From assembly GCA_026398815.1 (NCBI GenBank), contig JAPLSA010000014.1:1-64000 (forward strand): a stretch of 64,000 bases of DNA, written 5' to 3'. Of the stretch, positions 33,344 through 56,091 are shown piece by piece. A program made the position numbers and the translations under genes. This stretch comes from Gammaproteobacteria bacterium (lineage in GTDB: Bacteria; Pseudomonadota; Gammaproteobacteria; Nevskiales; Nevskiaceae). Position 1 is the stretch's first letter; each line of letters starts with the position of its first letter. Below the pieces are notes generated by a model, which was not told the origin of the DNA, searched no databases, and worked only from the letters and a program-made list of their open reading frames with translations.

Positions 33344-33874
33344 GTGGCCTCACCGGTCACCAGCCTGCCGCCACGCGAACCGCCGGCCGGGCACGCCCGC
33401 ATCCTGATCCTGGGCTCGATGCCCGGCGTCGCCTCGCTGACCGCGCAGCAGTACTACGCCCACCCGCGCAACCGCTTCTGGCCATTGATGCACGCGCTAT
33501 TCGGCGTGCCGCTAGATGTCGGTTACGACACCCGCGTGACCGCGCTGAATATGGCCGGCGTCGCGCTATGGGACGTGCTGCACCGCTGCGAACGCCCCGG
33601 CAGCCTCGACAGCCGCATCGTGCGCGGCACCGAAGTGCCGAACGACATCGCCGGCCTGCTGGCGCGGCACCCAGCGCTGGAGGTCATTGCGCTGAATGGC
33701 GGCGCGGCGCGGGACGCGTTCCGGCAATCGGTGGCACCGGCACTCGGCGCCCGGCTCGACGCTATCCGCGTGCTGGCGATGCCGTCGACCAGTCCGGCGA
33801 ATGCGGCGGTGGGGTTGGCGGTGCTTCAGAGTCGCTGGGCTGGGTTGCTAGGCCCGTGCGTGGGTGGCGGGTGA
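33344..33874 (+). CDS. uracil-DNA glycosylase superfamily (DNA-deoxyinosine / G-T(U) mismatch glycosylase)
   Basis: ILILGSMPGVASLTAQQYYAHPRNRFWPLMHALFGVP...NMAGVALWDVLHRCERPGSLDSRI...VLAMPSTSPANA. Confidence 0.9.
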   Translation: MASPVTSLPPREPPAGHARILILGSMPGVASLTAQQYYAHPRNRFWPLMHALFGVPLDVGYDTRVTALNMAGVALWDVLHRCERPGSLDSRIVRGTEVPNDIAGLLARHPALEVIALNGGAARDAFRQSVAPALGARLDAIRVLAMPSTSPANAAVGLAVLQSRWAGLLGPCVGGG

Positions 33875-34083
33875 GCTGCGAGCGTGGAGCTGCGCCATTC
33901 AACGACGTGCTCGGGCGATTGAATGCACGGGCATCGCGGGCTTATCGTGCGTGCGTGAAGCCGGGCGGCTTCTTTTCCGAATCCGAGCTCGTCCGTGCCG
34001 GACCACGTTATCCAGCAGTGTTATCGGGCGCCTTTGCTCAATAACACTCCGTTTTATTCGGCGATTTTGATAGCTAATTCAAG

Positions 34084-34960
34084 TTAGGCCTCACGAAATT
34101 ACCCATGAGTACCGCCACCATCTCCGAGCCTATCTCCGGTCTAAAGCTATATCAGCAGCGAGCCCGCAAGGCGCTTCCCTTGCTTGTACGTCAGGCGGAA
34201 GCGGGCAACACGATCTACTACTCTGAGCTGGCTGCCGAACTCGGGATGCCGAATCCTAGGAATCTGAATTTCGTCCTCGGAAGCATCGGTCAAACTCTTG
34301 AGAACCTCTCGAAGGCTTGGAAGGCCCCCATACCTCCAATTCAATGCGTTGTAGTCAATAGAGCCACCGGCCTCCCTGGCGAGGGTATTGGTTGGTTCCT
34401 CGTCAAAAAAGAAGACTTCGTGGCACTGCCGCGCGAACAGCAGGAGGCCGTCGTCAGCGCGCATCTTGAAAGGATCTTCGCCTACCCGTTCTGGGCAAAG
34501 GTCCTTAGCTCTCTATCGCTTGTCCCCTCCCCGGCGCTCATCACCAAGGTCGAAATGCCAAATTTCGGTGGCTCTGGTGAAGGCCCTGAGCACAAGAAGC
34601 TCAAAGAGTACGTGGCCAAGCACCCCGAGTTGGTTGGACTTCAACCAACGGCTACTCCAGGTCGAACTGAAGATCCGCTGCTATCAGGAGACTCGCTGGA
34701 TGTCTCGTTCTGCCAGGGAAGGCGCTGGATAGCAGTTGAGGTGAAGTCACGTATCTCCAAGCAGTTGGATGTCCAACGCGGACTCTTTCAATGCGTCAAA
34801 TATCGTGCAGTTATGAAAGCCCAGACCCGAGCTCTCGGCACGAATCTGCACGTTCGAGCTGTCCTCATCCTCGGGGGTAATTTCCCCAAGGGCCTGCTGC
34901 CACTCAAGAACATGCTCGGAGTAGAAGTCATCGACCGAGTTGTCGCGCAGTGAGGCCTAA
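34084..34960 (+). mobile_element. putative single integron-type gene cassette or inverted-repeat-bounded islet
   Basis: TTAGGCCTCAC (34084-34094) and exact reverse complement GTGAGGCCTAA (34950-34960) bracket one ORF; GTTAGGC (34083-34089) fits attC GTTRRRY and GCCTAAT (34955-34961) is one base from RYYYAAC; the stop codon ends 1 nt before GCCTAAT; A/T-richer than flanks. Confidence 0.4.
34105..34953 (+). CDS. hypothetical protein with PD-(D/E)XK nuclease-like C-terminal motif
   Basis: GDSLDVSFCQGRRWIAVEVKSRISKQLDVQRGLFQCVKYRAV fits D-x(n)-(E)xK; N-terminal helical YYSELAAELGM region; distinct codon composition. Confidence 0.65.
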   Translation: MSTATISEPISGLKLYQQRARKALPLLVRQAEAGNTIYYSELAAELGMPNPRNLNFVLGSIGQTLENLSKAWKAPIPPIQCVVVNRATGLPGEGIGWFLVKKEDFVALPREQQEAVVSAHLERIFAYPFWAKVLSSLSLVPSPALITKVEMPNFGGSGEGPEHKKLKEYVAKHPELVGLQPTATPGRTEDPLLSGDSLDVSFCQGRRWIAVEVKSRISKQLDVQRGLFQCVKYRAVMKAQTRALGTNLHVRAVLILGGNFPKGLLPLKNMLGVEVIDRVVAQ

Positions 34961-35045
34961 TCCTTCGCTCAAAGCGCCCTCAAAGGCATATCACTTGGGC
35001 CGCTGCGGTCAGTGACGTAGCGTGCGCTACCACCCGCCCCCGCCC

Positions 35046-35930
35046 ATGCTCGCCTTCCACACCCTCGACGTCTTCACCGAAACCCGCTTCGGCGGCAATC
35101 CGCTGGCCGTGGTGCTGGATGCCGATGGCCTGAACACGCGGCAGATGCAGACCATCGCGCGCGAATTCAATTTGTCGGAAACGGTGTTCGTGCTGCGGCC
35201 GACGCGGGCGGAAGCGCTCTGCCGGCTGCGCATCTTCACGCCGGATGTGGAGTTGCCGTTTGCCGGGCATCCGACCGTCGGCACGGCCTGCCTGCTGGCC
35301 AAACTGGGGCTGGCGCCGCAGGGTGAGGATGTACGCTTCGTGCTGGAGGAGAACGTCGGCCCGGTGCCGGTGCGGGTGCAGCGCGAGGCGGGTCGTGCGC
35401 CTTACGCGGAGCTGACCACGGCGGTGCTGCCGCAGCGCGGGCAGGAACCGTGGCCGTCGAACGCGGTGATCGCGGCGATGCTGGGGCTGAGCGAGGCGGA
35501 CATTGGCGAGGTGGCCACGGTGAGCTGCGGCGTGCCGTACCTGCTGGTACCGCTGCGGACGCCGGAACTGCTGGCGGGCATCGAAATGAACGTGGCGCTG
35601 TGGCGCGAGCATCTGCACGGCCGCTGGGCGCATCACGTCTATGTGACGGCGCAGGGTTACGAGGGCGAGATCCGCGCGCGGATGTTCGCGCCGGGCTCCG
35701 GGGTGATCGAGGACCCGGCGACCGGCTCGGCGGCGGTGGCGCTGGCCGGGCGGATGGCGCTGGAGTCGACGATCGAGAACGGCACGCTGCGCGCGGTGAT
35801 CCACCAGGGGCTGGAGATGGGTCGGCCGAGCGTGCTGCACATCGAGGCCGATCGCGTGGGCGGGGCGGTGAGCGCCGTCCGGGTCGGTGGCCACAGCGTG
35901 GCGGTGCTGTCGGGCAGCCTGCGGGTCTGA
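35046..35930 (+). CDS. PhzF family isomerase/epimerase-like protein
   Basis: MLAFHTLDVFTETRFGGNPLAVVLDADGLNTRQMQTIAREFNLSETVFVL...LPFAGHPTVGTACLL...DPATGSAAVALAG. Confidence 0.95.
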   Translation: MLAFHTLDVFTETRFGGNPLAVVLDADGLNTRQMQTIAREFNLSETVFVLRPTRAEALCRLRIFTPDVELPFAGHPTVGTACLLAKLGLAPQGEDVRFVLEENVGPVPVRVQREAGRAPYAELTTAVLPQRGQEPWPSNAVIAAMLGLSEADIGEVATVSCGVPYLLVPLRTPELLAGIEMNVALWREHLHGRWAHHVYVTAQGYEGEIRARMFAPGSGVIEDPATGSAAVALAGRMALESTIENGTLRAVIHQGLEMGRPSVLHIEADRVGGAVSAVRVGGHSVAVLSGSLRV

Positions 35931-40324: not shown

Positions 40325-41863
40325 ATGAGTGAATCCAGCCCGGTTGATGCACCGCAATCCGATTCTTCGTGGCAGTCGTTGCTCGACGATGCCGCGGGCT
40401 GGCTCCTGCTGCTCGCAGTCGTCGGCGGGCTGGCGCTGCTGCTGCCCGGCTTCACGTTCGATCCGGCCGAGTCGCACTTCCTGATCGCGGTCGGCGTCGT
40501 CGGGCTGTGGCGGTACGCACTCCGCGCACTACACTTCGTACGGGCAATGTGGTTCCTGTACGTGGCTTATCCGCGGATGCGCGAACGGGCGGTAAAGGCC
40601 GGCGCAGCCTCGGATCCGTCGCACGCCTACTTCATGGTCACCAGCTTCCGGATCGACGTCGAGACGACGGCCCGGGTGTATCGGGCGATCCTGGAGCAGG
40701 CCATCGAGTGCGGCTATCGCAGCACCATCGTTGCTTCCATCGTCGAATACGGCGATGAGCTGCTGTTGCGCGCGCTGTGGGAAACCTACCAGCCCCCAGA
40801 GCGCATCTCGCTGAAGATCGTCCGCATCCCCGGTACCGGCAAGCGCGATGGCCTGGCGCACGGCTTCCGCGCCATCGCCCGTGATTGTCCGGATCACCGT
40901 GCGCTCGTCGCAGTGATCGACGGCGACTCCGTCCTCGTTCCCGGCATGATGCGCAAGTGCGCGCAGATGTTTCACCAGCTGCCGGACGTCGGCGCGATGA
41001 CCACCAACGAGTTCTGCACAGTGCTCGGCTCGAAACTGATGAGCGAGTGGCACAAGCTGCGCTTCGCGGAACGTCATTTGAACATGTGCTCGATGGCACT
41101 GAGCCGCCGGGTGCTGACGCTGACCGGCCGCATGTCGGTATTCCGCGCCCAGATCGTCACTCAGCACTCGTTCATCTCGGATGTCGAGAATGACTCGATC
41201 CTGCATTGGCGCCTCGGCCGCGTGAAGTTCCTGACCGGTGACGACAAGTCGTCGTGGTACAGCGTCGTCAAACACGGCTGGCGCACGTTCTATTTGCCGG
41301 ATGCGGCCATCCAGACCATCGAGCATCCGCCCAGCCCTAGCCTGTGGAAGAGCAGTCGCACGCTGATGTTCCGTTGGTACGGCAATTCGCTGCGCCAGAA
41401 TGGTCGCGCCCGCGAACTCGGGCCGACTCGGCTGGGCTGGTTCACCTACTACGTGCTGCAGGACCAGCGAGTACAGATGTGGACCGGCCTGCTCGGCTTG
41501 CTCGCCTCACTGTTGGCCAGCATCCACTTCAACTTCAATTACCTGATTGCCTTCTTGGTCTGGATCGCGATTACCCGCTGCCTGATGTGCGTCATGTTGA
41601 TGGTGGCAGGGCACCGGGTCGGACCGATGTACCCGCCGCTGATGTACTACAACCAGATTCTCGGATCGGTCATCAAGATCATCGTGTTCTTCTTCCCCGA
41701 TCGGCAATCCTGGACGCGGCAGAAGACCACGCTGACCAAGCACCTTGACCCGTTTCACGCCCGCTTCAACACGCTGTCGTCCCGGATCATGCTGTTCTCT
41801 GCCTGCAGCGTGTTCGCGGCAGCAGTGATCACGATCGCGACTTTCAAATCATCATTCGGCTGA
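40325..41863 (+). CDS. alg8: mannuronan synthase glycosyltransferase Alg8
   Basis: GT2 features (VAVIDGDSVLVPGMMRKC, QHSFISDVENDSILHWRLGRVKFLTGDDKSSWY) and terminal TM segments; position after algD. Confidence 0.95.
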   Translation: MSESSPVDAPQSDSSWQSLLDDAAGWLLLLAVVGGLALLLPGFTFDPAESHFLIAVGVVGLWRYALRALHFVRAMWFLYVAYPRMRERAVKAGAASDPSHAYFMVTSFRIDVETTARVYRAILEQAIECGYRSTIVASIVEYGDELLLRALWETYQPPERISLKIVRIPGTGKRDGLAHGFRAIARDCPDHRALVAVIDGDSVLVPGMMRKCAQMFHQLPDVGAMTTNEFCTVLGSKLMSEWHKLRFAERHLNMCSMALSRRVLTLTGRMSVFRAQIVTQHSFISDVENDSILHWRLGRVKFLTGDDKSSWYSVVKHGWRTFYLPDAAIQTIEHPPSPSLWKSSRTLMFRWYGNSLRQNGRARELGPTRLGWFTYYVLQDQRVQMWTGLLGLLASLLASIHFNFNYLIAFLVWIAITRCLMCVMLMVAGHRVGPMYPPLMYYNQILGSVIKIIVFFFPDRQSWTRQKTTLTKHLDPFHARFNTLSSRIMLFSACSVFAAAVITIATFKSSFG

Positions 41864-41897
41864 TCAGTCCCCACTCTCACGTCACGGAAACACTTGC

Positions 41898-43073
41898 ATG
41901 GCTCAATCCAGCCCCTCCCGGATCGTCCACGAATCCGAAGCGCAACGTCAGTTCGTCAGAGTCAAACTGCCGGCGACGATCCAGTTCACCTCCGATGGCA
42001 CTCGCAAGCAGTTTTCGCTGCACGACATTTCGGCCGGGGGCTTCAGCTTTGATCCCGGCCAGACCACATTCAAGGTCGGCTCGGTGTTCACCGGCCACGT
42101 GGTGCTGAATGTTGATTCGGTCGGCTTCACGATTCCGGTGACCTTCGAAGTCCGTACGGTGGATGCGCAGACCGGCCGCGTCGGCTGCTTCTTCCAAGAA
42201 CTGGGAATCAAGGAAGTCTCCGCGTTGCGGCAGATCATCACCTCGTTCCTCGGTGGCGAACTGGTCAGCACCGGCGAAATGCTGACCACGCTGTCGCGCG
42301 AAAACTTCGTGCGTGCACGCAACGCTGGCGGCGGTCTCAGCGCTGGCGGCAAAGTTCGCGCGGTTCTCGGCACCGCTGTAGCGCTGGCCGTCGGCGTGAT
42401 CGCCTTCGGTTACGCCTCTTTCAAACTGTACGACCTGGTCTTCGTAACCCACGCCACGGCAGCGAAGGTTGCAGCAACGACATTCACCATCTCGATGCCT
42501 CGCGATGGAACCTTCTTTCCTCTGGTCGAGGAAGGTGGATCCATCAAGAAGGGTCAAGCCACCGGTCAGTTCGAAACTGCCCTTCTCCAGGTGGTCGAGG
42601 GAATCTCCGGCTCGTTCAAGCTTACTGCCCAGCAGCTTACGGAACTGGTGGGGCAGCAGTTGCGCGGCTCCATTGCCAGCCCATGTGATTGCATTGTCCA
42701 GAAATCATATGCAGTCGGTGGCCAGTACGTGCTTCGCAACCAGGCCGTGATGGAACTCGTGCCGGAAGGAACAAAGCCATACATCCTGGCCCGATTCCAC
42801 TACGACCAGATGAAGCGGCTTCCGATTGGCCGCGAAGTCGTGCTGAGAGTCAACGGATCTCCGGAAACCCTCACCGGCAAAGTCACCAGCCTGCGAGTGC
42901 TTCCAGCCCCGACTATCGACAGCAATGGTCTGAACGACCTGAATGGTCTCGACACCAGTGCTGCCATCACCGACATCATCGTTGTCATCACTCCAGATGT
43001 CGAACTTGAAACCAGCAGAATCGATCAGCCGGTCGAGATCTTCGCCGATCCGCTGCACAAGTATTTCTGGTGA
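41898..43073 (+). CDS. alg44: PilZ-domain alginate polymerisation protein Alg44
   Basis: PilZ signature RQFVR...HDISAGG, one TM segment, periplasmic HlyD-like part. Confidence 0.95.
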   Translation: MAQSSPSRIVHESEAQRQFVRVKLPATIQFTSDGTRKQFSLHDISAGGFSFDPGQTTFKVGSVFTGHVVLNVDSVGFTIPVTFEVRTVDAQTGRVGCFFQELGIKEVSALRQIITSFLGGELVSTGEMLTTLSRENFVRARNAGGGLSAGGKVRAVLGTAVALAVGVIAFGYASFKLYDLVFVTHATAAKVAATTFTISMPRDGTFFPLVEEGGSIKKGQATGQFETALLQVVEGISGSFKLTAQQLTELVGQQLRGSIASPCDCIVQKSYAVGGQYVLRNQAVMELVPEGTKPYILARFHYDQMKRLPIGREVVLRVNGSPETLTGKVTSLRVLPAPTIDSNGLNDLNGLDTSAAITDIIVVITPDVELETSRIDQPVEIFADPLHKYFW

Positions 43074-43080
43074 TGGTGTG

Positions 43081-44856
43081 ATGCGTAAAGCCGTCATTGC
43101 CGGACTCACTCTCGCTAGTGTCGTTGGTGCCGGCTGCTCATCGGTCGGCTTCAACACAGGGCTACCGGTATTGACCAAGAATGGGCGAGGCATTCTTGTC
43201 AGCGAAACAGCCGGACCTCCCGACCTTGAGCGTGGACGACATGCACGACTAGTCGGCAAGCCGCAGGAAGCACTGCTGGATCTCAAACCCCTTGCTGAAG
43301 CAGGGTATCCAGACGCGATGACGTTGTTGGCGGCGACGTACCTGGATTTTGGTACCGTCGATTCTCGGGCTGAATCCGAAAAATGGTATCGGCGTGCGCT
43401 GCACGCGCGACCGGATGCCGGTCTGTCCCTCGCACGACTTCTGATCGGTTATGGCAAGCGTGACTATCTTCCTGAAATCAACTCGCTCATCGACGATGCG
43501 GTGCGCCGGGGAAATGAAGAAGTCGATAGCGTCAAGCTACAACGCTACATGCAGTTTCCCGATCTCGACACCCAGAACGACGGCGACCTCATCGCCCAAC
43601 GTGGGCTGAAGTCAGATTTTGTAAGCGTTCAGGTTCAGTCACTCGTCTGGCTGCGGCAGAACATCGCCAAAGGAAACAATGCTGCCCTCCTCGAAGCGAA
43701 TTGCCGGACGCTGCTAAGTGTCGAACCGGGTTGCTACATCGACCTCGCACACTTCTACAGATATCAGCACAAGCAAGATCAGCTCGAAAAGATTCTCGAC
43801 GCTGCTCTGCTCGCATTTGCTGCAGGCGCCAACGGCACCGCACAAATCGACGATTCGGCACGCCTCTATCAGCCGCCAACGCAGTATGCGTCCCTGGCTG
43901 GTCGCCTGGCGGCCGCAATGGTCGACGAGATCAACGAAACCACCGACGGCGATGTACCGGAGCAGGAGAGCGCAACTGCTACCACCGGTCAACCCGATCT
44001 GGATTTCGAGGATGACGAGTTCGAAGGTGCCAACCCGAAAGCGCCGTCTGCTGCTGACGTCTCGGTCGCCACTCCGGAACGCAAGGAGCCACCAGCGCCT
44101 GGTACTGCTCCTGCTGAAGGCAATGCGTCTTCGCAGAACGTCGAACTGGCAAACAAGGTCTTGAGGTGGATGCTTGCACGGGGCGGCGAGTTCTCCGTGG
44201 AGGCGGCCATCGTTGCCGTGCATTACCCATTCCTCCTTCCTGACATCGATCTCGAAGCAACCCTGCGTCCCGCAGCGAACGACAAGAACCCTGCAGCTGT
44301 TTCAGCCCTCGCTGATCTCCTGTTCAACAGTCAAAGAATTGCAACTCGCCGCCCCCTCGAAGCGGTCGCACTCTATAAGCAGTGTCTGGGTTACGTCGCT
44401 ACTGAAACGCGTGCGAATTCACGGCTGGGACGGGTGTATTCCATGGGAATCCTTGGCGATCCCAATCCGCAAATGGCGCTGAAGCATTACCTGAAGGCAG
44501 CTCGGGCTGGCTCGGTCGAATCGTACTCAAGCCTCGCTCGTATGTTTCTCGGCATGTCGGGAATTCAGGTCAATCGGGTCAATGGCTACGTTTTTGCGAA
44601 GCGATCTGAGGACGCCGGACGACCGATGATGATGCGAATTCGCAAGCTGAAGCGGCTGAATGAGCTAAAGCTCGACCTCGAATCCGCGGACATGTTCGAA
44701 GTGCTGCAGGTAAAGCTGCTTGATCAGATCACCAGCGAAATGACGGCAGCCGAGATTGCCGAGGCGCAACGTCTGTATCAAATGGAACGTGCCATCCAGC
44801 CGGTACTCAAGCAGCCCATACCGTCTGACATCTACACCAGAGGCCAACAACAATGA
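43081..44856 (+). CDS. algK: alginate export lipoprotein AlgK (TPR/Sel1-like)
   Basis: Lipobox VVGAGCSS, Sel1-like repeats (EAGYPDAMTLLAATYLDFG), position before algE; ATGA overlap with algE. Confidence 0.9.
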   Translation: MRKAVIAGLTLASVVGAGCSSVGFNTGLPVLTKNGRGILVSETAGPPDLERGRHARLVGKPQEALLDLKPLAEAGYPDAMTLLAATYLDFGTVDSRAESEKWYRRALHARPDAGLSLARLLIGYGKRDYLPEINSLIDDAVRRGNEEVDSVKLQRYMQFPDLDTQNDGDLIAQRGLKSDFVSVQVQSLVWLRQNIAKGNNAALLEANCRTLLSVEPGCYIDLAHFYRYQHKQDQLEKILDAALLAFAAGANGTAQIDDSARLYQPPTQYASLAGRLAAAMVDEINETTDGDVPEQESATATTGQPDLDFEDDEFEGANPKAPSAADVSVATPERKEPPAPGTAPAEGNASSQNVELANKVLRWMLARGGEFSVEAAIVAVHYPFLLPDIDLEATLRPAANDKNPAAVSALADLLFNSQRIATRRPLEAVALYKQCLGYVATETRANSRLGRVYSMGILGDPNPQMALKHYLKAARAGSVESYSSLARMFLGMSGIQVNRVNGYVFAKRSEDAGRPMMMRIRKLKRLNELKLDLESADMFEVLQVKLLDQITSEMTAAEIAEAQRLYQMERAIQPVLKQPIPSDIYTRGQQQ

Positions 44857-46253
44857 AAACAAAATTCTCTGCAGCCTTAGCTTCGGCGATTTTCCTAGCT
44901 GCGCCGCAGGCGGTCGCCCTCCAGATCAACAGCGCGCTTCGAACCGCCGTCGGCGGCCAGGCGGATGGCCCTCGGGATCTGGGTCAAAACGATCTGTCAA
45001 GCAATGAAATTGTTTACTTGAACTTTTCACCTCGGGTTTCCATCGAGTTCAGTCAGGATTGGACGATGTACCTCCGCGGGAGAGCGTTTCTCCCCTCAGG
45101 CGATGTCATTGACAATGATGAAACCCAGTCAACCCTGCAGCGCGAAACAAAAAGCTTCGTCAAGCTAGACGAGGCCTGGATCCGCTACAGCGGATTCACG
45201 AGCTACCCTGGCGAGTCGGTGAGAATCGGACACCAGTTTGTCCGCGAAAACGATCGCAGCTGGTTGGGTCGTGACGTCGATGCGATCTATTGGGTCCTCA
45301 ATACAACTCGGTTCACGTCCAGCGCCGGCGTCTTCTACCAGTTCTCCCCATATCGCTCCGACGGCATTGACCTTCCGCCAGAGCAGCGCAAGCGGATATA
45401 TGGCCACGGTAATTTTTCAACGGATTGGCTTCCGGAGCATCAGGTCGGCTTTCGAGCATTGCATGCACGCGATGTCGATGGTTCATTGCCGAGCCTCGCC
45501 GCAACAACAGCAGCAGACTCGAAGCTTGAGGCCGTCAATCTGACCTGGTTAGGCGTCTACTTCAGTAATGGTTACCTGAACGCTCGCAATCCTAATTCGA
45601 TCAAGTACTGGGCCGACGTCACCTACTTGTTCGGGAACACAGTAACAGCAGGTCTGGCAAACGATCGATCGGTCGCGCGATTCAATCGGCAAAGTATTGG
45701 GGCAGTCGCCAGCACCGTCGCCGTTCGTTGGCGTCCAGGTGTATGGCCAGTTTCGGTTGGCGCCGAGTACGCCTACAGCGGCGGCGGCGGAAAGAGTCAA
45801 TACCGCCAGAGTGGAATCCAAGGCAATTCGGTTCAGTTCACTGGTGCCTCCGCCAGTTCCTATCGATATAACGAAGCACTGAGAGCTCAGCTTGGCAATC
45901 TTCGAATTGCCACTCTTTATGCGTCTTTGAACCTGCCTTCAAACGATTTCTCCATCGTCCTTCAGAAGTTTAACAAGGACGATCGCTTTGCCCCGATTGT
46001 GACGAACAATTTGTCGGTCGGCACCGTCGGAGGCTCAACCGATGTTGGATACGGTCTCGATTTCATCGCAAGCCATTATCTGCAAATTCCTGCAGTACTA
46101 CGAAGCCTCGACGATGGCGGTGGCCTGATGACTGAAGATCCGAGGTCATCAATTCGCCTTCGTGCCTCATTGTTCAATCCAGGAAACGCCTACGCCGCCG
46201 GGTCCGACATTAATTATCGAGTCATCGTTGAGGCGACGCTATGGTGGTTCTGA
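44853..46253 (+). CDS. algE: alginate outer-membrane export porin AlgE
   Basis: Signal peptide, beta-barrel alternation, ESVRIGHQFVRENDRSWLGRDVDAIYWVLNTTRFTS, terminal aromatic WWF; position. Confidence 0.93.
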   Translation: MKTKFSAALASAIFLAAPQAVALQINSALRTAVGGQADGPRDLGQNDLSSNEIVYLNFSPRVSIEFSQDWTMYLRGRAFLPSGDVIDNDETQSTLQRETKSFVKLDEAWIRYSGFTSYPGESVRIGHQFVRENDRSWLGRDVDAIYWVLNTTRFTSSAGVFYQFSPYRSDGIDLPPEQRKRIYGHGNFSTDWLPEHQVGFRALHARDVDGSLPSLAATTAADSKLEAVNLTWLGVYFSNGYLNARNPNSIKYWADVTYLFGNTVTAGLANDRSVARFNRQSIGAVASTVAVRWRPGVWPVSVGAEYAYSGGGGKSQYRQSGIQGNSVQFTGASASSYRYNEALRAQLGNLRIATLYASLNLPSNDFSIVLQKFNKDDRFAPIVTNNLSVGTVGGSTDVGYGLDFIASHYLQIPAVLRSLDDGGGLMTEDPRSSIRLRASLFNPGNAYAAGSDINYRVIVEATLWWF

Positions 46254-47887
46254 GCCGCCAGATGCTGGTCAAGCTGATTGCGTTCTTATTCGCAATTGTT
46301 GCCGCCGTTCAGCCCTGCTACGTAAATGCAGCGGCTGATGACGATGTGGGTCAGGACGCTGAGGGCGCCTTGAACGACGAATCATACGGCGAGGACGGAG
46401 CCGATGATCTGGAAAGCAACTCGAACTTGCGAAAGCTGACTGACGCCGAAGTTCGAGCGGCGTATGCGCTCAAGAAAGAGGAGCCCGAGTCACTTCCCGC
46501 ATTTCAAGCACCGAAGCTCCCTGATCTCAGCGGCTACAACTACGGCGCTGTCTTGCGCAAAGTCGACAAGAGCAAGAAAGGAACGGTATCCCTCGGTTCA
46601 ATTCTTTCCGAACCGGGATTCAAGGTTCTTACCTATAACGGATCGGTTGGGCTCTCGGCATTCGCTCGACTTCAAGGTGGCGGACTCCGTGCAATTGTTA
46701 TCAGTGGCGGCTTAGTGACCCTCAAGGATATTGCGGCTGCGATATCCGGTGACTATTTCCAGGACCTTGGCCAAGGCAGGTATCTTGCACGGCTCCCCAT
46801 CCTTGTTCGCCACGGCGCTACGTTACTCGTTGACAAATCGGTCAAACAGTTTCGGCTCGGCGCGGAAAAGGGCTCACTCCTTTCAATCGAAGGGCGTTTG
46901 GTACTGAGTGATTCGGAGATTGTCGGCTGGGACGAAACTCGCAATCGAACTGCCGAACTAAAAGACCCCAAAAAATTCCGCCCGTTCATCGTGAGCTGGG
47001 GTGGATCCGATATATATCTTGCACGCAGCCGCGTAGCACATCTTGGTTATGCCGCGAAGAAGGCCTATGGCCTCTCGCTTTCTCAGTATGGCTCGCTTCA
47101 GCTTCAGTCAAAGGTATGGCCCCGTCCCACTGGATGGATTATCGAAACGGTAATCGAGGACCTTTGGTACGGTCTATACACATGGGAAGCTGACGGCGTT
47201 GTGATGCATTCAAATGTCATGAAGAACAACATACTTTATGGCTTTGACCCTCATGACCGCTCGCGACATCTGATCATCGCGAACAACGATGTTTATGGAA
47301 CGAAAATCAAGCACGGCATCATTATTTCCCGTGAAGTCAACAACAGTTGGATTTTCGGCAACAGGACTCATGACAATCACAAGGCCGGAATTGTTCTAGA
47401 TCGTCAATGCTCAAACAATGTTGTCGCAAACAATATCGCGACTCAGAACGGTTCAGATGGAATCATCATATCTGAGAGCTCTAAGAATATTGTTTGGAAC
47501 AATGTTGTTTCCGGAAACAACAACCATGGCATTCGACTCAGAAACAGTACGGATGTGCGCGTGCAGGACAACGTAGCTCTGGCAAATGGACTGACCGGGG
47601 TCTACGGTGCAGCTGTTGATCTGTCAGGAACAACTCGTGATTTCGTTCATGACTTTTACACGAAGCAACTGGGAATGACCGTTGTCGGCGGACAGTACAC
47701 TTCTAATGGAAGTGGGCCGTTCGGCTTGGATTACCCGACGAAGGCGTCGTTCTATGGAGTCGACCTCCGGACACCGCAGCGGCAGCTCGGATTCAGATTG
47801 GGCGGGATGCTTCCGCCGTTTCAAATTGAACTTCTAGATATATTGCTGAATCAAAACAAGGTTGCTGTTGTTCAGGCTAAAAAGTAA
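46241..47887 (+). CDS. algG: mannuronan C5-epimerase AlgG
   Basis: Parallel beta-helix repeats with catalytic LYGFDPHDRSRHLIIANNDVYG; 13-bp overlap with algE. Confidence 0.95.
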   Translation: MVVLSRQMLVKLIAFLFAIVAAVQPCYVNAAADDDVGQDAEGALNDESYGEDGADDLESNSNLRKLTDAEVRAAYALKKEEPESLPAFQAPKLPDLSGYNYGAVLRKVDKSKKGTVSLGSILSEPGFKVLTYNGSVGLSAFARLQGGGLRAIVISGGLVTLKDIAAAISGDYFQDLGQGRYLARLPILVRHGATLLVDKSVKQFRLGAEKGSLLSIEGRLVLSDSEIVGWDETRNRTAELKDPKKFRPFIVSWGGSDIYLARSRVAHLGYAAKKAYGLSLSQYGSLQLQSKVWPRPTGWIIETVIEDLWYGLYTWEADGVVMHSNVMKNNILYGFDPHDRSRHLIIANNDVYGTKIKHGIIISREVNNSWIFGNRTHDNHKAGIVLDRQCSNNVVANNIATQNGSDGIIISESSKNIVWNNVVSGNNNHGIRLRNSTDVRVQDNVALANGLTGVYGAAVDLSGTTRDFVHDFYTKQLGMTVVGGQYTSNGSGPFGLDYPTKASFYGVDLRTPQRQLGFRLGGMLPPFQIELLDILLNQNKVAVVQAKK

Positions 47888-47931
47888 CTAATCCGCACCA
47901 GTTCATTTTTGAATTTTTCGAGGAAGACATC

Positions 47932-48555
47932 ATGGTTCGACTAAAAAGTTGGTTTGGTGCTCTCATCTTTCTGATGGCAGCGGTACTCCCGATGCAATCG
48001 CAGGCGCAGCTTTATGCAAAGGGCGCGCCGCCCGGATCAGCGTTCGTCCGCGTTCTGAACGGCACAGCTGCGCAAAGCCCATCCGGCTTTATCGGAGAAA
48101 CTGCACAACCTGCGCTCCCGGCATTCACCGCAGGGCAGTTCATCTTCCTGCCACCTGGCGACTATCCCGTACAGCTCGGCAGCCGGAAAGAAACCTTCAA
48201 ACTTGAAGCCGATCGTTTTTACAGCATCGCGTACCTCCCGGATTCGATGCGGAGCTTTCAGCTCGAGGGCTTCAAGAGCCAGTTGAAAGCAATGGTCATC
48301 ATGATGAATCTCCTCCCCGATAAGACGCTGTCGTTGAAAACGGCGGATGGCAAGGTCACCGTCCTGGATGCCATTGCACCCTTCAAAGCCGGACAGCGAG
48401 AAATCAATCCTCTTTCCGTTTCCCTTGGTCTTTTTGATGGTGATAAGAAGATCATCGATGTTCCTGCAGCAACGTTCGAACGTGGCAAAGCGTCGAGCTT
48501 GATTGTCGGCGGCACCTCTACGGTCCCGATCCTTACGTGGGACGAACAGAAGTAA
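47932..48555 (+). CDS. algF: alginate O-acetylation protein AlgF
   Basis: AQLYAKGAPPGSAFVRVLNGTAAQ...FKLEADRFYSIAY...AfGQREINPLSVSLGLFDG-type AlgF sequence (observed KAGQREINPLSVSLGLFDG). Confidence 0.9.
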   Translation: MVRLKSWFGALIFLMAAVLPMQSQAQLYAKGAPPGSAFVRVLNGTAAQSPSGFIGETAQPALPAFTAGQFIFLPPGDYPVQLGSRKETFKLEADRFYSIAYLPDSMRSFQLEGFKSQLKAMVIMMNLLPDKTLSLKTADGKVTVLDAIAPFKAGQREINPLSVSLGLFDGDKKIIDVPAATFERGKASSLIVGGTSTVPILTWDEQK

Positions 48556-48588
48556 ACGTACAGATCTGAGCTAACGCGGGAATCCACC

Positions 48589-49986
48589 ATGTATTCAGTT
48601 GGACGTAACATCGCTATCGGAATGCTGATCGCAAGCGCACAGCTTGCATCAGCTCCGGCAAATGCAGAAACGACAGATAGTGCTGGTGAGTTCAAGTACT
48701 CAGCCGAGACGTGCTGCACTGTCTGCCCGAAAGCTGCTGATCGTGATGCCTACGTCAGTGAGTACATGCGTGGATATCGCGTCGTTGTGGAAGGTAAGGA
48801 CGGCTGGTTGTTCAGAACGGAAGCAGAACTTCAGTGGCTTGAACCGAACGACCCGGAGATGTGGTCATCGTTGAAGCGCTTGATTGCTGCGCTTAACGCC
48901 AGGGGGACCCAAGTCCTGATGTTTCCTCAGCCGCCGCGCGGCCTGGTGGAAACCAGGATGTTGAAAGATGAAACACTGCAGAAATTCGATATCAATGAGT
49001 TGCAGCGTCGTTATAGCCAGCTCATCGATCAATTGAGGTCGATCGGCGTGCTGGTCGCTGACGGAACTGCATTTAGCCACAACACGGAAAGTCAGTACTT
49101 CTACAAGCGCGACGGTCACTGGAAAGCGTCTGGTTCGCAGCGCGCTGCAGAAATGATTGCATCGAAAGTTCGCGAAGCTGGCTTCGACTTTCCGGCGAAG
49201 CAATATGAAACCTTGGAAGTCGGCCTCGTTGGCTCGCGCGGCACGATGTCCCATGTTGTTTCAACCCTGTGCGGATTGATGTATCCGATGGAATATGGTC
49301 CCGCCTACCAAACCAAAGCGCCGGCGACGGATGACTTGTTCGGTGACGAGGCGGCGCCAGAGGTTGCGCTCGTGGGCACGAGCTTCAGTGCAACCCCAAC
49401 CTACAATTTTCTGGGTTTTCTTCGGAAAGCGCTGAACACCGATATTTATCAAGCCGCGATGGCCGGCGGCGGCTTTGACGGCGCCTTGTCACAGTACCTG
49501 GTGTCGGATCTTTACCAACAACATCCTCCCAAGCTCATTGTTTGGGAGTTTCCGTATCAGCAGTTGCAAAGAACCAACACCGCGGTGATGCGGCGTGTGC
49601 TTCCGCTGGTCGGCAATGGTTGTCGTGGCAAGAAGCCGATCATGAGTAATACCGTGAAGCTTTCGGGGAACAATGAGCTTGTCGAGGCTGTGGTTAACGG
49701 CGGCGAGCAGTTCAACCCCATACCAGCGAAGGATCTTTGGCTTGATTTTCAGTTCTCGGATCCGAACGTCCGCGTCATGAAAGCCGAAGTTTGGTACGCC
49801 GACGGCAAATCTCAGATTCTTAACGGCCGTTATAACTCCTACACGAAAATGGACGGTCGGTTTGCACTCGAAACAAACTACACGCCTGACGCCGAGATAC
49901 AGCCAATCGTGTCGGTGCGCGTTCAGAGCATTACTGAAACGGCGAAGAATACGACCGTGACCACAACTGTGTGCAAACGCAATTGA
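48589..49986 (+). CDS. algX: alginate O-acetyltransferase AlgX (SGNH-like)
   Basis: CCTVCPKAADRDAYVSEYMRGYRVVVEGKDGWLFRTEAEL; YKRDGHWKASGSQ (DxH) and ALVGTSFSATPTYNF (catalytic Ser). Confidence 0.93.
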   Translation: MYSVGRNIAIGMLIASAQLASAPANAETTDSAGEFKYSAETCCTVCPKAADRDAYVSEYMRGYRVVVEGKDGWLFRTEAELQWLEPNDPEMWSSLKRLIAALNARGTQVLMFPQPPRGLVETRMLKDETLQKFDINELQRRYSQLIDQLRSIGVLVADGTAFSHNTESQYFYKRDGHWKASGSQRAAEMIASKVREAGFDFPAKQYETLEVGLVGSRGTMSHVVSTLCGLMYPMEYGPAYQTKAPATDDLFGDEAAPEVALVGTSFSATPTYNFLGFLRKALNTDIYQAAMAGGGFDGALSQYLVSDLYQQHPPKLIVWEFPYQQLQRTNTAVMRRVLPLVGNGCRGKKPIMSNTVKLSGNNELVEAVVNGGEQFNPIPAKDLWLDFQFSDPNVRVMKAEVWYADGKSQILNGRYNSYTKMDGRFALETNYTPDAEIQPIVSVRVQSITETAKNTTVTTTVCKRN

Positions 49987-49991
49987 TCGAT

Positions 49992-51092
49992 ATGTCACGC
50001 ATACGTCCCATCTTGTTGGTGCTCCTGGCGGGAACTGGAGCGCTGCTGCAGCCTCGGTGTTTTGCGGCCAACGACTCTTTAGTAGCGCCGCAGGGCTTCT
50101 CTTCGTCGATTCAGTCGAATCAACGTACATCGTCGGATTGTGAAAGTGCTCCGGAACCATTCACTGGGACGCTGAACTTCCCCAGCAAATATGAAGGCTC
50201 GGGGTCGTCACGAGACGAATTGAATGTCGATGCGGAGCGTCGATACAAGGATGCGACGTCATCAATTTCATCTTTTGAAATGGGCATCGCGTCTCTTTCT
50301 TCCCGCTATATACAGCGTGGATCCGACGCCGATGCCGGTTGTGTTCTCTCTTGGCTTGATGATTGGGCTGAACATGGCGCGCTGCTCGGCAAGGCGGAAA
50401 CGCACACCGGGAAATCTGTTCGCAAATGGGCGCTTGCCGCTATCAGCTCGTCCTATCTCAGACTGCAAAAGTCAAAGAGCGCGCCCCTTAAGAAACATGC
50501 AGGCGAGCGAAGCCGTATTGAGGCCTGGTTACGAGCCATTGCAGCCAAGGTTGCTGCAGAGTGGCCTGTGGACGCACCAATCAACAAGATCAACAACCAT
50601 TTCTATTGGGCTGCCTGGAGCCTTGTTTCTACTGGAACGGTATTGAACGATCGTGCCATGTTCAACCAAGGCCTCGAGATTTACAGAATTTTCGAACGGC
50701 AGATCACCGCCGAGGGCTTGCTTCCCAACGAGGTTGGTCGGCGGTCGAGAGCACTTGGTTATCACGCATATGCGCTTGCTCCGTTGGCAATGATTGCAAC
50801 TTTTGCGGTTGCTAACGGCGAAGTCGTTGATACAGGACCGAAGTCTCCCCTTTCTCGCCTTGCGAAAACTGTCTTTGACGGTTTTCAGGCACCGGCAGGG
50901 TTTGCCGGTCTTGTCGGCAGCAAGCAGGAAGTCAGCACGAATGTCGCCACCAACTTCAGTTGGCTGGAACCCTACTGCTCGATTGCGGCCTGCGACACCT
51001 CGATGACGGAGTTTTTGCAACGGAATCGTCCGTTCAAGTCGACGAGACTGGGGGGAGATCTCACTACGCTATTTGGAACGAAGCAGCCATGA
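49992..51092 (+). CDS. algL: alginate lyase AlgL (PL5)
   Basis: NFPSKYEGSGSSRDELNVDAERRYKDAT and INKINNHFYWAAWSL catalytic region; ATGA overlap with the next gene. Confidence 0.93.
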   Translation: MSRIRPILLVLLAGTGALLQPRCFAANDSLVAPQGFSSSIQSNQRTSSDCESAPEPFTGTLNFPSKYEGSGSSRDELNVDAERRYKDATSSISSFEMGIASLSSRYIQRGSDADAGCVLSWLDDWAEHGALLGKAETHTGKSVRKWALAAISSSYLRLQKSKSAPLKKHAGERSRIEAWLRAIAAKVAAEWPVDAPINKINNHFYWAAWSLVSTGTVLNDRAMFNQGLEIYRIFERQITAEGLLPNEVGRRSRALGYHAYALAPLAMIATFAVANGEVVDTGPKSPLSRLAKTVFDGFQAPAGFAGLVGSKQEVSTNVATNFSWLEPYCSIAACDTSMTEFLQRNRPFKSTRLGGDLTTLFGTKQP

Positions 51093-51949
51093 CGCGCTTT
51101 CATGCAGCAGTAGGTGCTTCGTTGATGCTTTCGCTTTCAGGCGCGTACGCGAACGAGGCCGATGCACGAAAGTTCATGGCGTACTGCGAACACGAGTTGA
51201 ACGACACCAAAAATTACGACGAAGCGGGAAAGATTTGCAAACGTGTCCGGGAAGATATCAAGGTTCTTCTCGGCATTTCGCCGCTTTATCTGCAAAGCAT
51301 TGTCAACGAAGCCGATTCCAAGTGGGCCCTGGGAAACTATCCCGAGGCTTTCAATCTTTATTCCGAAGCTGCAGATGTCGCCATCAAGCTTGGCGACATA
51401 AACAAGGTTCGGGAACTGCGAATCCGGCAGGCTGAAGCCGAACTGTTTCGCGGAAAATCCTTCGAAGCTGAAATATTGCTGCGCGATGCTCTGCGACGCC
51501 TTCAAAGCTCTCGCGGAAGCAACCCGCTGCAGGAAGCTGATCTCCTGTCGCGTCATGCAGAAGTGCTCGTGACGCTAGGCCAGGCGAAGGCAGCGATGCA
51601 GGGTTATCTTGCTGCGTTCGCGAAACTTGATGCCGACTCCATCAAACATCGCCCCATCCTGCTGAAGACTCAACTGCGCTATGCAGAGCTTTTTGAGCGC
51701 CAGAGTCGATATTCAGGCGCGACGGCGAGTTATTTGAAGTTGTTGCAACTCGCCTCATCCAAACCGACGAATCCCGAGTATGTGGCTATTGCCTACGGGC
51801 GCTTGGGATGGATCTCAGAGACTTTAGACAAGCCTGCAGACGCCTTGTCCTATTACCGGCGGCAACTTGAAGTCATCGAAAAAGATCCGGCTCAAGTGGC
51901 TGCGGTTGACGAGTTGCGGAAGAAAATTATTCAGCTTGAAAAGAGTTAG
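51089..51949 (+). CDS. periplasmic TPR-repeat protein of unknown function in alginate locus
   Basis: Signal peptide MTRFHAAVGASLMLSLSGAYANEA; TPR-like helices (ALGNYPEAFNLYSEAADVAIKLGD, YGRLGWISETLDKPADALSYYRRQLEV); overlaps algL stop. Confidence 0.85.
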   Translation: MTRFHAAVGASLMLSLSGAYANEADARKFMAYCEHELNDTKNYDEAGKICKRVREDIKVLLGISPLYLQSIVNEADSKWALGNYPEAFNLYSEAADVAIKLGDINKVRELRIRQAEAELFRGKSFEAEILLRDALRRLQSSRGSNPLQEADLLSRHAEVLVTLGQAKAAMQGYLAAFAKLDADSIKHRPILLKTQLRYAELFERQSRYSGATASYLKLLQLASSKPTNPEYVAIAYGRLGWISETLDKPADALSYYRRQLEVIEKDPAQVAAVDELRKKIIQLEKS

Positions 51950-52019
51950 TGCTGAATCTTTATCAGGCATTCAGTGCAGGGCCGTTGTACGCCGACATTA
52001 TTAAAGCCAGGGAATTTTG

Positions 52020-53183
52020 ATGAGTAAGAATCACCCGTCGTCCGGGCCGGAGCTGCATAGCGCGAGCCGCAGTTATGCCCCAGTGGGCGTCGTCTTTGCA
52101 TTGACGGTTGGTGTGCTTTCGGCGCTGAGCCTTCCCTCTTTGCTGTCTTATCGTGCTCCGCCAGTCAAAGTGATCAACGGAGACTTGGTCAGGAACTTCG
52201 AGGAGCATTTCGACAAAGAGTTCCCGCTGCGTACGGCCAGCATCAATTTCTGGACCGCATTGCAGCTGGTGTTGTTCCATGAAGGCAAGACCGGTGTTCT
52301 GCTGGGTACCGACGGCTGGCTCTACACGAACGAAGAGTTTCATGTGCTTCCGCGTTGGGAGCAGATCTTCGACCAGAACCTCGAGCTGATTCGCTGGACG
52401 CAGGCCACCCTTGCCGATGCCAAGGTTCCGTTGGTCGTCGTCGTAGTGCCGGAAAAGGCGCATGTCTATCCGGAGTACATCAACGGTCATCGCCAGGCCA
52501 GCGCCCATGCCACAGTCATGGCACGGCTGCGCGCCGCCATCGGCGAACAGACCACGCTGATCACGCTCGACGACACATTTGCAGCGGCAAAAGTCCAACA
52601 GCCGCTGTTCTTCCATACCGATACCCACTGGACTCCGGCTGGCGCCAAGCTAGCCGCACAAGCGGTGACTCGCGCGATGGCCGCCAAGGGGTTGGCTACC
52701 AAGACTGGCGATGCCGACGCCTTCGAGACCACCGAACAGCCGGAAGCCACGCTGGTCGGCGACCTGCTGTCATTTCTGCCGTTGGAGCCGATGTTTCCGA
52801 GCCTGATGCCGAAGGCTGATATCTATGTTCCTGTGGTGACGAAGGCGATCGAAAAGGAAGCCAGCGCCGAATCCCTGCTCAGCGACGAGTCGATTCCGGA
52901 AGTGGCTGTGGTCGGCACCAGCTATACGGCCAACGACCGCTGGAACTTCCAGGGCTTCCTGAGCGAATTCCTCAACGAGCCGCTGGCCGACTATTCGAAG
53001 GAAGGCATCGGCCCGTTCCCGCCGATGGCGCAGTTCCTGACGAGCCAGGACTACGCCGGGCACAAGCCGCGCGTGGTGATCTGGGAAATCCCGGAGCGCT
53101 CGCTGCTCGGCAAGGCTGCCCTGAAAGGCATCGACCTGCCAGAAGCACTCACCACCAAGCTGGCGTCCATCCACCCGAGATAG
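52020..53183 (+). CDS. algJ: alginate O-acetyltransferase AlgJ (SGNH-like)
   Basis: N-terminal TM anchor, LLGTDGWLYTNEEF, FFHTDTHWTPAGAKLAAQAV, VAVVGTSYTANDRWNFQGFL. Confidence 0.92.
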   Translation: MSKNHPSSGPELHSASRSYAPVGVVFALTVGVLSALSLPSLLSYRAPPVKVINGDLVRNFEEHFDKEFPLRTASINFWTALQLVLFHEGKTGVLLGTDGWLYTNEEFHVLPRWEQIFDQNLELIRWTQATLADAKVPLVVVVVPEKAHVYPEYINGHRQASAHATVMARLRAAIGEQTTLITLDDTFAAAKVQQPLFFHTDTHWTPAGAKLAAQAVTRAMAAKGLATKTGDADAFETTEQPEATLVGDLLSFLPLEPMFPSLMPKADIYVPVVTKAIEKEASAESLLSDESIPEVAVVGTSYTANDRWNFQGFLSEFLNEPLADYSKEGIGPFPPMAQFLTSQDYAGHKPRVVIWEIPERSLLGKAALKGIDLPEALTTKLASIHPR

Positions 53184-53186
53184 AAC

Positions 53187-54617
53187 GTGGTCTTTTCCTC
53201 GAACGCGTTCCTGCTGCTGTTCCTGCCGCTGTTCCTGTTGCTGTACTACCTGACGCCGAACACCCGCCGCCTGCGCAACTATGTGGTGCTGGTGGCCAGC
53301 TATGTGTTCTACGGCTGGTGGCGTATCGATTTCCTGACGCTGCTGATATTCGTCACGCTGTTCAATTTCTGGATTGGCGGGCAGATCGGTGCAGCCGGCG
53401 CGCGCAGCGAGAAAGCACGCAGCTGGATGCGCTTCGGTGTGACCATCGATCTGGCCGTGCTTGGCTACTTCAAGTACCGCGACTTCGGCATCGACAGCTT
53501 CAATTCGATCATCACGGCGACCGGCCTCGAGCCGTTCAGCCTGTCCGAGCTGCTGCTGCCGATCGGCATCTCGTTCTACATCTTCGAATCGATCAGCTAT
53601 GTGATGGATGTCTATCGCGGCAGCGTGAAGCCGACGCGACACCTGGCCGATTTCGCGATGTTTGTCACGATGTTCCCGCACCTGATCGTCGGCCCGCTGT
53701 TCCGCTACAAGGAACTGGCGTCGCAGTTCGAGCATCGCGTCCACTCGATGGACATGTTCGGCCGCGGCGCGGTTCGCTTCATGCAGGGATTCGCCAAAAA
53801 GGTCATCATCGCCGACACGCTCGCGCCGATGGTGAACTACTGTTTCGCGCTTCCCGATCCGAGCACGGCCGATGTCTGGATCGGCGTGCTGGCATACGGT
53901 GTGCAACTGTATTTCGACTTCTCGGGATACAGCGACATGGCGATCGGTCTGGGCCTGATGATGGGATTCAAGTTCGTCGAGAACTTCAACAAGCCCTTCA
54001 TCAGCCAGAGCGTCACCGAGTTCTGGCGCCGTTGGCACATCAGCCTCAGCAACTGGCTGCGTGACTACGTGTTCTATTCGCTCGGTGGTTCGGCGCGCAA
54101 GACGCGGATGCGTCTGCACTACATGACGTTCATGACGTTCCTGATTGGCGGCATCTGGCACGGCGCGGACTGGACGTTCGTGCTTTGGGGAGCACTTCAG
54201 GGAGGATTGCTGCTGATCGAAAGGATGTTGGGCGTGAAAGGAAATCCGACCGGTTTCAAGCTGCATCACTGGGCAATAACCTTCATCGTCGCGGTGGCGA
54301 TGAGCATGGTGCTGTTCCGTGCCGATAGCGTGCCGGCCGCGGTGCAGATGTACAAATCGATGCTGTTCCTGCAGAACGTCGGCTGGATCAGCGAACCCTT
54401 CGCAGGGGCGATCAGCACGATGCAGCTTGCAACGCTTGTGCTGGCGTACGGCCTCGTCATCTTCGAGGGCCTGCGCGAATACGGACCGAAGATCCAGCTC
54501 GGCAGCGAGCGGGTAAGGGTCGTCTCATCGGTGCTGCTGCTGACGCCGCTGTTCTTTCTTGCGATCACGAAGCTGTCGGCGCAAGGGTACTCGGCGTTCC
54601 TGTACTTCCAGTTCTGA
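53187..54617 (+). CDS. algI: MBOAT O-acyltransferase, AlgI paralog 1 (divergent)
   Basis: VFSSNAFLLLFLPLFLLLYYLTPN, FWRRWHISLSNWLRDYVFYSLGGSARKTRMRLHYMTFMTFLIGGIWHGADWTF; GTG start. Confidence 0.92.
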   Translation: MVFSSNAFLLLFLPLFLLLYYLTPNTRRLRNYVVLVASYVFYGWWRIDFLTLLIFVTLFNFWIGGQIGAAGARSEKARSWMRFGVTIDLAVLGYFKYRDFGIDSFNSIITATGLEPFSLSELLLPIGISFYIFESISYVMDVYRGSVKPTRHLADFAMFVTMFPHLIVGPLFRYKELASQFEHRVHSMDMFGRGAVRFMQGFAKKVIIADTLAPMVNYCFALPDPSTADVWIGVLAYGVQLYFDFSGYSDMAIGLGLMMGFKFVENFNKPFISQSVTEFWRRWHISLSNWLRDYVFYSLGGSARKTRMRLHYMTFMTFLIGGIWHGADWTFVLWGALQGGLLLIERMLGVKGNPTGFKLHHWAITFIVAVAMSMVLFRADSVPAAVQMYKSMLFLQNVGWISEPFAGAISTMQLATLVLAYGLVIFEGLREYGPKIQLGSERVRVVSSVLLLTPLFFLAITKLSAQGYSAFLYFQF

Positions 54618-54666
54618 CGGGCCGATAGAGCTCGCACGCCGCACAATAGCCCCCTGGTGAGGCCCA

Positions 54667-56091
54667 ATGGTTTTTTCGTCGAATGTCTTTTTGCTGCTGT
54701 TCCTGCCGCTGTTCCTGTCGGTTTACTACCTGACACCGAACAAGCGCCGGATCCGCAACTACGTGATCCTGGCCGGCAGCTACTTCTTCTACGGCTGGTG
54801 GCGCATCGATTTCCTCGGCCTGTTCGCTGCGGTCACGATCTTCAACTACTTCGTCGGCTCAGCCATCGGCAATGCCGGTGTCGGGCAGCCATTGGCTCGC
54901 CGCTGGATGAAGCTCGGCGTGGTGGTCAACCTGGCGGTGCTTGGCTACTTCAAGTACGCCAACTTCGGCGTCGCCAGCTTCAACGAACTGATGACCGGGC
55001 TCGGCTTCGAGCCGTTCGTCATGGCGAGCGTGCTGCTGCCGATCGGCATCTCGTTCTACATCTTCGAATCGATCAGCTACATCGTCGACGTCTATCGCGG
55101 TGATGCCGAAGCGACCAAGCATCCGGTGGACTTCGCGACCTTCGTGTCGCTGTTCCCGCACCTGATCGCCGGCCCGATCTTTCGCTACAAGGATCTGGCC
55201 GACCAGTTCGAGCAGCGCGATCATTCCGCGCGCCTGTTCGGCCTGGGCGCGACCCGTTTCATGCAGGGCTTCGTCAAGAAGGTAATCGTTGCCGATACCG
55301 TCGCGCCGCTGGCGGACTACTGCTTCTCGCTGACCAATCCGTCGACCGCCGATGCCTGGCTCGGCGCGCTGGCTTACACGGTGCAGCTGTACTTCGACTT
55401 CTCCGGCTACAGCGACATGGCGATCGGCCTCGGCCTGATGATCGGCTTCCGCTTCATGGAGAACTTCAACGCACCGTACATCTCGCAGAGCATCACCGAG
55501 TTCTGGCGGCGCTGGCATATCAGCCTGTCGAGCTGGTTGCGTGACTACCTCTACATCCCGCTCGGCGGCAACCGCAACGGCAACGCGGCCACCCATCGCA
55601 ACGTGATCATCACGTTCTTCCTCGGTGGCGTCTGGCACGGCGCGAACTGGACCTTCCTGGCCTGGGGCGCGATGCAGGGTTTCATGATCTTCATCGAGCG
55701 CGTGCTCGGCATCAGCGGGTCGCCGAAAACCTTCCGCGTCACGCGCTGGCTGATCACCTTCATCCTGGTGATGATCAGCTGGACCGTGTTCCGCGCCGCC
55801 AGCATCAGCGAGGCCTGGCGGATGTACCAGCCGATGTTCCTGCTGAAGAACGTCGGCGGCCTCAGCGATCCGATGCTGACGATGATTTCCGGCCTGCAGG
55901 TGTCGATGCTGGTCTTCGCTGCCCTCTTCGTGCTGACCGAAGGCGTGCTGGCCTATGGCCCGAAGCGCGCACCGATATCGGGACGAACCCGCACGGCAAT
56001 GATCATCGGCCTGCTGCTGCCACTGTTCGCGATGTCGATCATGAAGCTGTCGGCGCAGGGCTACTCGGCGTTCCTGTACTTCCAGTTCTGA
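54667..56091 (+). CDS. algI: MBOAT O-acyltransferase, AlgI paralog 2 (canonical)
   Basis: VFSSNVFLLLFLPLFLSVYYLTPNKRRIRNY, FWRRWHISLSSWLRDYLYIPLGGNRNGNAATHRNVIITFFLGGVWHGANWTF. Confidence 0.94.
   Translation: MVFSSNVFLLLFLPLFLSVYYLTPNKRRIRNYVILAGSYFFYGWWRIDFLGLFAAVTIFNYFVGSAIGNAGVGQPLARRWMKLGVVVNLAVLGYFKYANFGVASFNELMTGLGFEPFVMASVLLPIGISFYIFESISYIVDVYRGDAEATKHPVDFATFVSLFPHLIAGPIFRYKDLADQFEQRDHSARLFGLGATRFMQGFVKKVIVADTVAPLADYCFSLTNPSTADAWLGALAYTVQLYFDFSGYSDMAIGLGLMIGFRFMENFNAPYISQSITEFWRRWHISLSSWLRDYLYIPLGGNRNGNAATHRNVIITFFLGGVWHGANWTFLAWGAMQGFMIFIERVLGISGSPKTFRVTRWLITFILVMISWTVFRAASISEAWRMYQPMFLLKNVGGLSDPMLTMISGLQVSMLVFAALFVLTEGVLAYGPKRAPISGRTRTAMIIGLLLPLFAMSIMKLSAQGYSAFLYFQF

Follow-up and report, generated by a model that had tools for sequence, protein, structure and literature searches.

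Integrons are usually drawn as a single platform, consisting of the integrase gene intI and its attI site, followed by an array of cassettes, and lone cassettes are usually credited to chance insertion into attG sites or to loss of intI. The locus described here, a 0.9-kb islet with a single cassette gene, can be set beside several known systems. The available text of PMC12444791 places the CALINs of Xanthomonas at conserved loci. The islet resembles these CALINs, whose cassettes occupy a small number of conserved chromosomal loci separate from intI and are potentially mobilised in trans; it differs in being a single cassette that has half an attC and is preceded by an attI-like site, and no attI is described at CALINs in that text (PMC12444791). 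In class 1 and class 2 integrons, delta-attI cassettes have partial attI sequences as cassette ends, which are likewise attI fragments away from the normal place and are able to recombine (PMC12901181). Those fragments come after the ORF, within mobile integrons, and are mostly 14–18 nt, up to 244 nt (PMC12901181), whereas the sites at the islet and in its genus are about 157 nt long, upstream of cassettes and at scattered chromosomal loci. As in attG insertions, a single chromosomal cassette is located far from intI; unlike in those, the target is homologous to attI and is not an unrelated GTT site. The islet protein is predicted to share the core fold and the D-ExK residues with the PD-(D/E)XK nucleases Card1/Can2/Cdn1 and XisH/FdxN, but it differs in its putative N-terminal alkyltransferase-like winged helix, which takes the place of a CARF domain, and in having no detectable sequence family match. 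A literature search returned no report of orphan or multiple attI sites or of dispersed attI sites leading lone cassettes, which is not proof of absence.

In this study, a stretch of 64,000 nucleotides (the window) was analysed. The islet lies on contig C26 of this genome (G000), with a UDG-superfamily gene to its left and a PhzF-like gene to its right, and it coincides with a 1-kb GC trough (54.5% at 34001–35000 vs 68–71% either side). We consider it probable that the islet is a decayed, probably immobile cassette behind an attI-like site far from intI, and that its protein is a phage-restricting nuclease. The features are as follows.

33344–33874, plus strand: UDG-superfamily gene, left flank (Pfam UDG, 3.3e-10); host gene with a conserved PhzF neighbour
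33933–34083, plus strand: orphan attI-like unit (full-unit profile match 33933–34089, E = 3.4e-8; putative crossover after G 34083)
33942–33950: attI-unit repeat TTATCGTGC
34008–34016: attI-unit repeat TTATCCAGC
34021–34029: attI-unit repeat TTATCGGGC
34083–34089, plus strand: core G/TTAGGC, with G the last attI base and TTAGGC the first six cassette bases (register of the attI profile alignment)
34084–34094, plus strand: inverted repeat, left arm TTAGGCCTCAC
34105–34953, plus strand: cassette gene, 282 aa, ATG to TGA
34950–34960, plus strand: inverted repeat, right arm GTGAGGCCTAA, exact reverse complement of TTAGGCCTCAC
34955–34978, plus strand: attC 5′ half, with R″ GCCTAAT, 5-nt spacer CCTTC and L″ GCTCAAAGC (position matrix rank 1)
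35049–35930, plus strand: PhzF-like gene, right flank (Pfam PhzC-PhzF, 3.1e-66); alternative start GTG 35022

A scan of the islet for consensus promoters and terminators found none. Elsewhere in the window, the region 41000–55000 has a lower GC content (48–60%), starts shortly past a UDP-glucose dehydrogenase-like gene and resembles a surface polysaccharide locus.

A preliminary description of this DNA had reported exact inverted repeats bracketing the ORF and a stop codon 1 nt ahead of GCCTAAT (34955–34961); both were found, with the arms at 34084–34094 and 34950–34960. The chance of some exact 11-nt inverted repeat within 1.2 kb was estimated at about 0.2, so that the repeat is not rare alone, and in any integron cassette the inner 6–7 nt (TTAGGC/GCCTAA) are expected to be complementary. 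The repeat is informative because its arms sit at both cassette cores, not because of its rarity. The geometry is that of a cassette: TTAGGC follows directly after the crossover G (34083/34084), as TTRRRY does in integron cassettes, the ATG is 16 nt past the core, and the ORF fills the unit.

For the right boundary, a position matrix trained on the 5′ half (R″-spacer-L″) of 29 attC sites ranked 34955 first of approximately 128,000 window positions, precisely where a cassette would need its attC, with a score of 9.4 bits against a training minimum of 17.8. The L′ and R′ parts were not recognisable, and the right end of the cassette is therefore undefined (34980–35020). An attC covariance model, whose training sequences came from this genus and two homologue arrays, did not match the window under default filters and reached only 7 bits when these were switched off, and single-strand folds of both islet ends were unremarkable (z about −0.4 to −0.7). 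Only one partial attC is present, as compared with the two or more attC sites without intI that make a CALIN. Because the full attC fold was not detected, the islet is called a decayed, not a functional, cassette, and with half of its attC gone it is probably stuck, that is, immobile. These results uphold the proposed R″-spacer-L″ of an attC at the right boundary and the proposed decayed state, the attC keeping its 5′ half only; where an attC fold had been anticipated, this 5′ half was present and the covariance model detected no complete fold.

Homologues with 73–47% identity are attC-flanked cassettes in Acidithiobacillus, Thiocapsa and other arrays. In the long array of L044 and in L074, attC sites immediately flank the homologue on either side; in L038 and L057, an attC directly abuts it on one side. 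The former pair supplied training sequences for the attC model, so that their match is expected; the latter pair did not. In several homologues, GTTAGCC is found just upstream of the ATG and GGCTAAC across the stop. The closest homologue, an Acidithiobacillus cassette (L074:1343–2184, 73% identity), is interrupted after 199 codons by an in-frame stop or a frameshift. As read from sequence, the cassette status of the islet rests on the attC 5′ half and these homologues, and the cassette origin suggested earlier agrees with both the geometry and the attC-flanked relatives.

The left end is of a different kind. It had been likened to attC L′-R′, and an ungapped matrix of the attC right half ranked it 8952, which lends no support to that assignment; instead, an attI-like site of about 157 bp was found. 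A profile of four attI sites gave its best window match at 33999–34089 (E = 0.0055), and a 12-site profile with the islet left out matched 34000–34089 (E = 5.7e-8 in 64 kb); in 82 kb of control DNA, its scores did not exceed 4.6 bits. A covariance-tool attI model (R2) gave E = 1.4e-8 in the window and 9.5e-7 genome-wide, and a longer attI profile (nhmmer) aligned the whole unit, 33933–34089 (approximately 157 bp), with E = 3.4e-8. Every profile alignment ended at GTTAGGC, which sets the crossover G at 34083. The islet site is diverged, scoring 30.7 bits vs 57–101 for clear copies, and carries a 9-nt deletion. When the islet flanks were compared with integron loci by short-word BLAST, nothing significant emerged, and a profile was needed to show the relation. 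When 40 genomes from the family's other genera were scored with stricter filters, the attI model matched none of them at 1e-6. On these alignments, the left flank is homologous to the intI-linked attI, in the crossover register. The site is named orphan and attI-like because it is not beside intI, which is on contig C29 while the islet is on C26.

The cassette gene is absent in 60 related genomes, and in six of them the UDG and PhzF genes are adjacent without the islet, separated by a short intergenic stretch only. The intergenic DNA of all relatives was too diverged to align with the islet, so that the search for an empty site suggested earlier yielded these six empty loci and the absence from 60 genomes, not an alignable exact site. 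The preliminary description had named several findings that would speak against the cassette: the lack of a complete attC fold was indeed observed, whereas empty loci do occur among relatives and 60 related genomes lack the gene. The cassette gene is foreign to the UDG-PhzF locus.

The earlier statement that no integrase is visible holds for the window, which also contains no intI remnant, but not for the genome: an intact integron integrase gene (477 bits) is present on contig C29, accompanied by attI and two attC. Close copies of this attI were found elsewhere in the same genome and in the genus. The model of this type (A) detected 18 sites in seven of the 18 genomes of the genus, the weakest of which, in G017 (E = 0.003), is doubtful. 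Only two are beside intI (C29 of G000 and C27 of G010), and 16, including that of the islet, are orphans. For eight orphan attI sites, a recognisable and correctly oriented attC lies no more than about 1.6 kb downstream, and at most attI sites an ORF starts 4–28 nt past the core. No intI remnant was found beside the orphan sites examined. Similarity among the copies ends about 140–175 nt from the core, and the two intI-linked copies stay alike farther. In G016 (91% complete), orphan attI sites are present and intI was not detected. A second attI type (B) is located beside intI in G014, G015 and G009 and is orphaned in G000, G013 and G002. The type-B orphans at G000:C19 (L162:3832–4596) and G000:C30 (L163:826–1552) lead cassettes and have the pattern GGATTAGGGGACC...CCCTAATCC...GGCGTTGGGC. 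A weaker site at G000:C1:111292–111371 (L227) has a core nearly identical to that of the islet (GGCTAATTCCAG/TTAGGC), and the 222-aa ORF downstream of it has no Pfam match.

Some orphan loci are shared with differing content. On C23 of G000 and C16 of G014, attI follows the same SET-domain gene, with different DNA beyond the site. Near one carboxylesterase gene, C11 of G000 and C54 of G010 (L228) carry attI-led cassettes in opposite orientation, and the 2.6 kb of the C11 locus correspond to 122 bp in G016; this carboxylesterase locus is possibly a hot spot. Such sharing implies that the loci are old or hot spots and that the cassette content turns over. When empty-site alignments were made for the orphans on C1, C11, C18 and C23, relatives aligned to or near the ends of the neighbouring genes, not to the junction. 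The orphan attI on C11 is followed by one cassette (G000:C11, L164:2425–4269), with a fused PARIS gene (AriAB; PADLOC, 682 bits) and a full attC, and a cassette behind an orphan attI in G010 (C10, L184:2352–2894) encodes an Mrr_cat restriction endonuclease. Four contigs of the assembly end inside cassette arrays (L003:1–380, L163:1–380, the end of L161 and the start of L183). Transposase-like sequences that are almost identical open C29 and C30, and the ends of C23 and C18 lie close to DNA that is alike; the similar contig ends suggest that one insertion sequence may be repeated within the arrays.

Several other origins of the islet can be weighed against these data. An ordinary nuclease gene, inherited vertically or acquired horizontally, with inverted repeats arisen by chance and no integron role, would be in keeping with the many homologues outside integrons; this reading is already contradicted by the match of both boundaries to integron sites in register and by the close homologues being cassettes, and we give it almost no weight. 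Insertion into a random non-classical attG requires little beyond a GTT core and is an established process in the available texts (cited in PMC12901181 and PMC12444791), and the attI likeness would then be a chance product of short A+T-rich boxes. However, the left flank is attI-homologous over about 157 nt in register, with E = 3.4e-8 to 5.7e-8 for islet-free profiles, and a second site in the genome (C1:111371) has nearly the same core; the profile matches already contradict chance likeness, which makes such an insertion very improbable. Hardly more probable is that the dispersed units are an unrelated repeat family (promoter or hairpin elements, for instance) of which the integrase makes incidental use. 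The units do hold direct and inverted TTATCGTGC boxes and lie between many different genes, but in G000 and G010 this very sequence is the intI-linked attI, and at nearly all sites the cassette starts exactly where the unit ends.

A stronger competitor, although still unlikely, is that the islet is the remnant of a complete second integron, which arrived with its intI, attI and cassettes and later lost intI by deletion. According to PMC12444791, integrase loss is frequent among relatives of this group, and the type-B attI, found beside intI in three congeners, is orphaned in G000 (C19 and C30), G013 and G002. Against this, the orphan sites examined show no intI remnant; the UDG gene, conserved in its order with PhzF, ends about 60 bp left of the attI unit; and the homology of the copies stops at a similar left edge, 140–175 nt from the core, not at random. 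For the spread of the attI copies in general, intI loss from former integrons and copying of the attI unit are about equally probable. We tentatively suggest, at rather less than even probability, that the attI region of the genus is a portable landing pad of approximately 160 bp, of which two types are scattered and loaded with cassettes in trans by one integrase.

The 282-aa protein showed no match in Pfam, NCBIfam, PADLOC and PDB sequence searches, only a Holliday junction resolvase at E = 0.1 in PHROGs, and five distant matches only in a plasmid search. A scan of GTDB genomes yielded 63 homologues from many phyla, five of which weakly match Tox-REase-9. In 45 aligned homologues, E159, H163, K167, D196, D199, E212 and K214 are invariant, as is an R-G-x-FQC-KY helix. 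The nuclease-like motif pointed out earlier, SLDVSF...IAVEVKSR, is present, and E159, D199, E212 and K214 are invariant. The AlphaFold2 model (mean pLDDT 92) displayed a putative N-terminal alkyltransferase-like winged helix (about 1–95) and a C-terminal PD-(D/E)XK nuclease domain (about 155–280). In Foldseek, the C-terminal half matched Card1, Cdn1, XisH and FdxN at probability 0.91–0.99, with Card1, Cdn1 and XisH at 0.96–0.99 and a best E of 0.026; when the N-terminal half was folded alone, most top matches were O6-alkylguanine-DNA alkyltransferases, with weak E-values (best 0.65). The alkyltransferase active-site motif PCHR/PWHR is replaced by PPIQC-V. Since the Foldseek E-values are weak, it is probability, the motif and recurrence that carry the domain calls. 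The residues and the fold match agree with the hallmarks of the PD-(D/E)XK superfamily (D and ExK on the core sheet, helix E), and the model, of high confidence, has two domains, the PD-(D/E)XK nuclease and a winged helix that may be of alkyltransferase type. Homologues outside integrons adjoin Type ISP/IIG restriction enzymes (L061 and L067), DrmD-like helicases (L061 and L064) and HipA (L073); the ten neighbours considered were chosen as adjacent same-strand ORFs and are suggestive, not a count. These restriction and DISARM-like neighbours appear to point to a defence context. Together, context and predicted fold make a stand-alone anti-phage nuclease likely.

The preferred reading, a decayed cassette behind an attI-like site, can be set out as a series of events. 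First, an attI copy would have come to lie between UDG and PhzF. The C29 integrase or its ancestor, acting in trans, would then have inserted the cassette by attI × attC recombination, and later decay of the attC 3′ half would have fixed the gene in place. In the encoded protein, the alkyltransferase-like winged helix may recognise DNA and the PD-(D/E)XK domain may cut it; the most likely effect would be restriction of foreign DNA, from phage or other sources.

The usual integron picture would have to change for a genome in which a single integrase is accompanied by up to seven attI-like sites at other loci. If the landing-pad reading is true, the integron is a system of one integrase and many attI sites, not one platform, and several of the loaded cassettes are defence genes. 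Inspection of the DNA directly after orphan attI sites would also offer a search route for defence genes, examples being the fused PARIS gene of this genome, the Mrr-type nuclease of a relative and the nuclease of the islet. The last would, by its predicted fold, represent a widespread unnamed family that occurs both in integrons and beside restriction systems.
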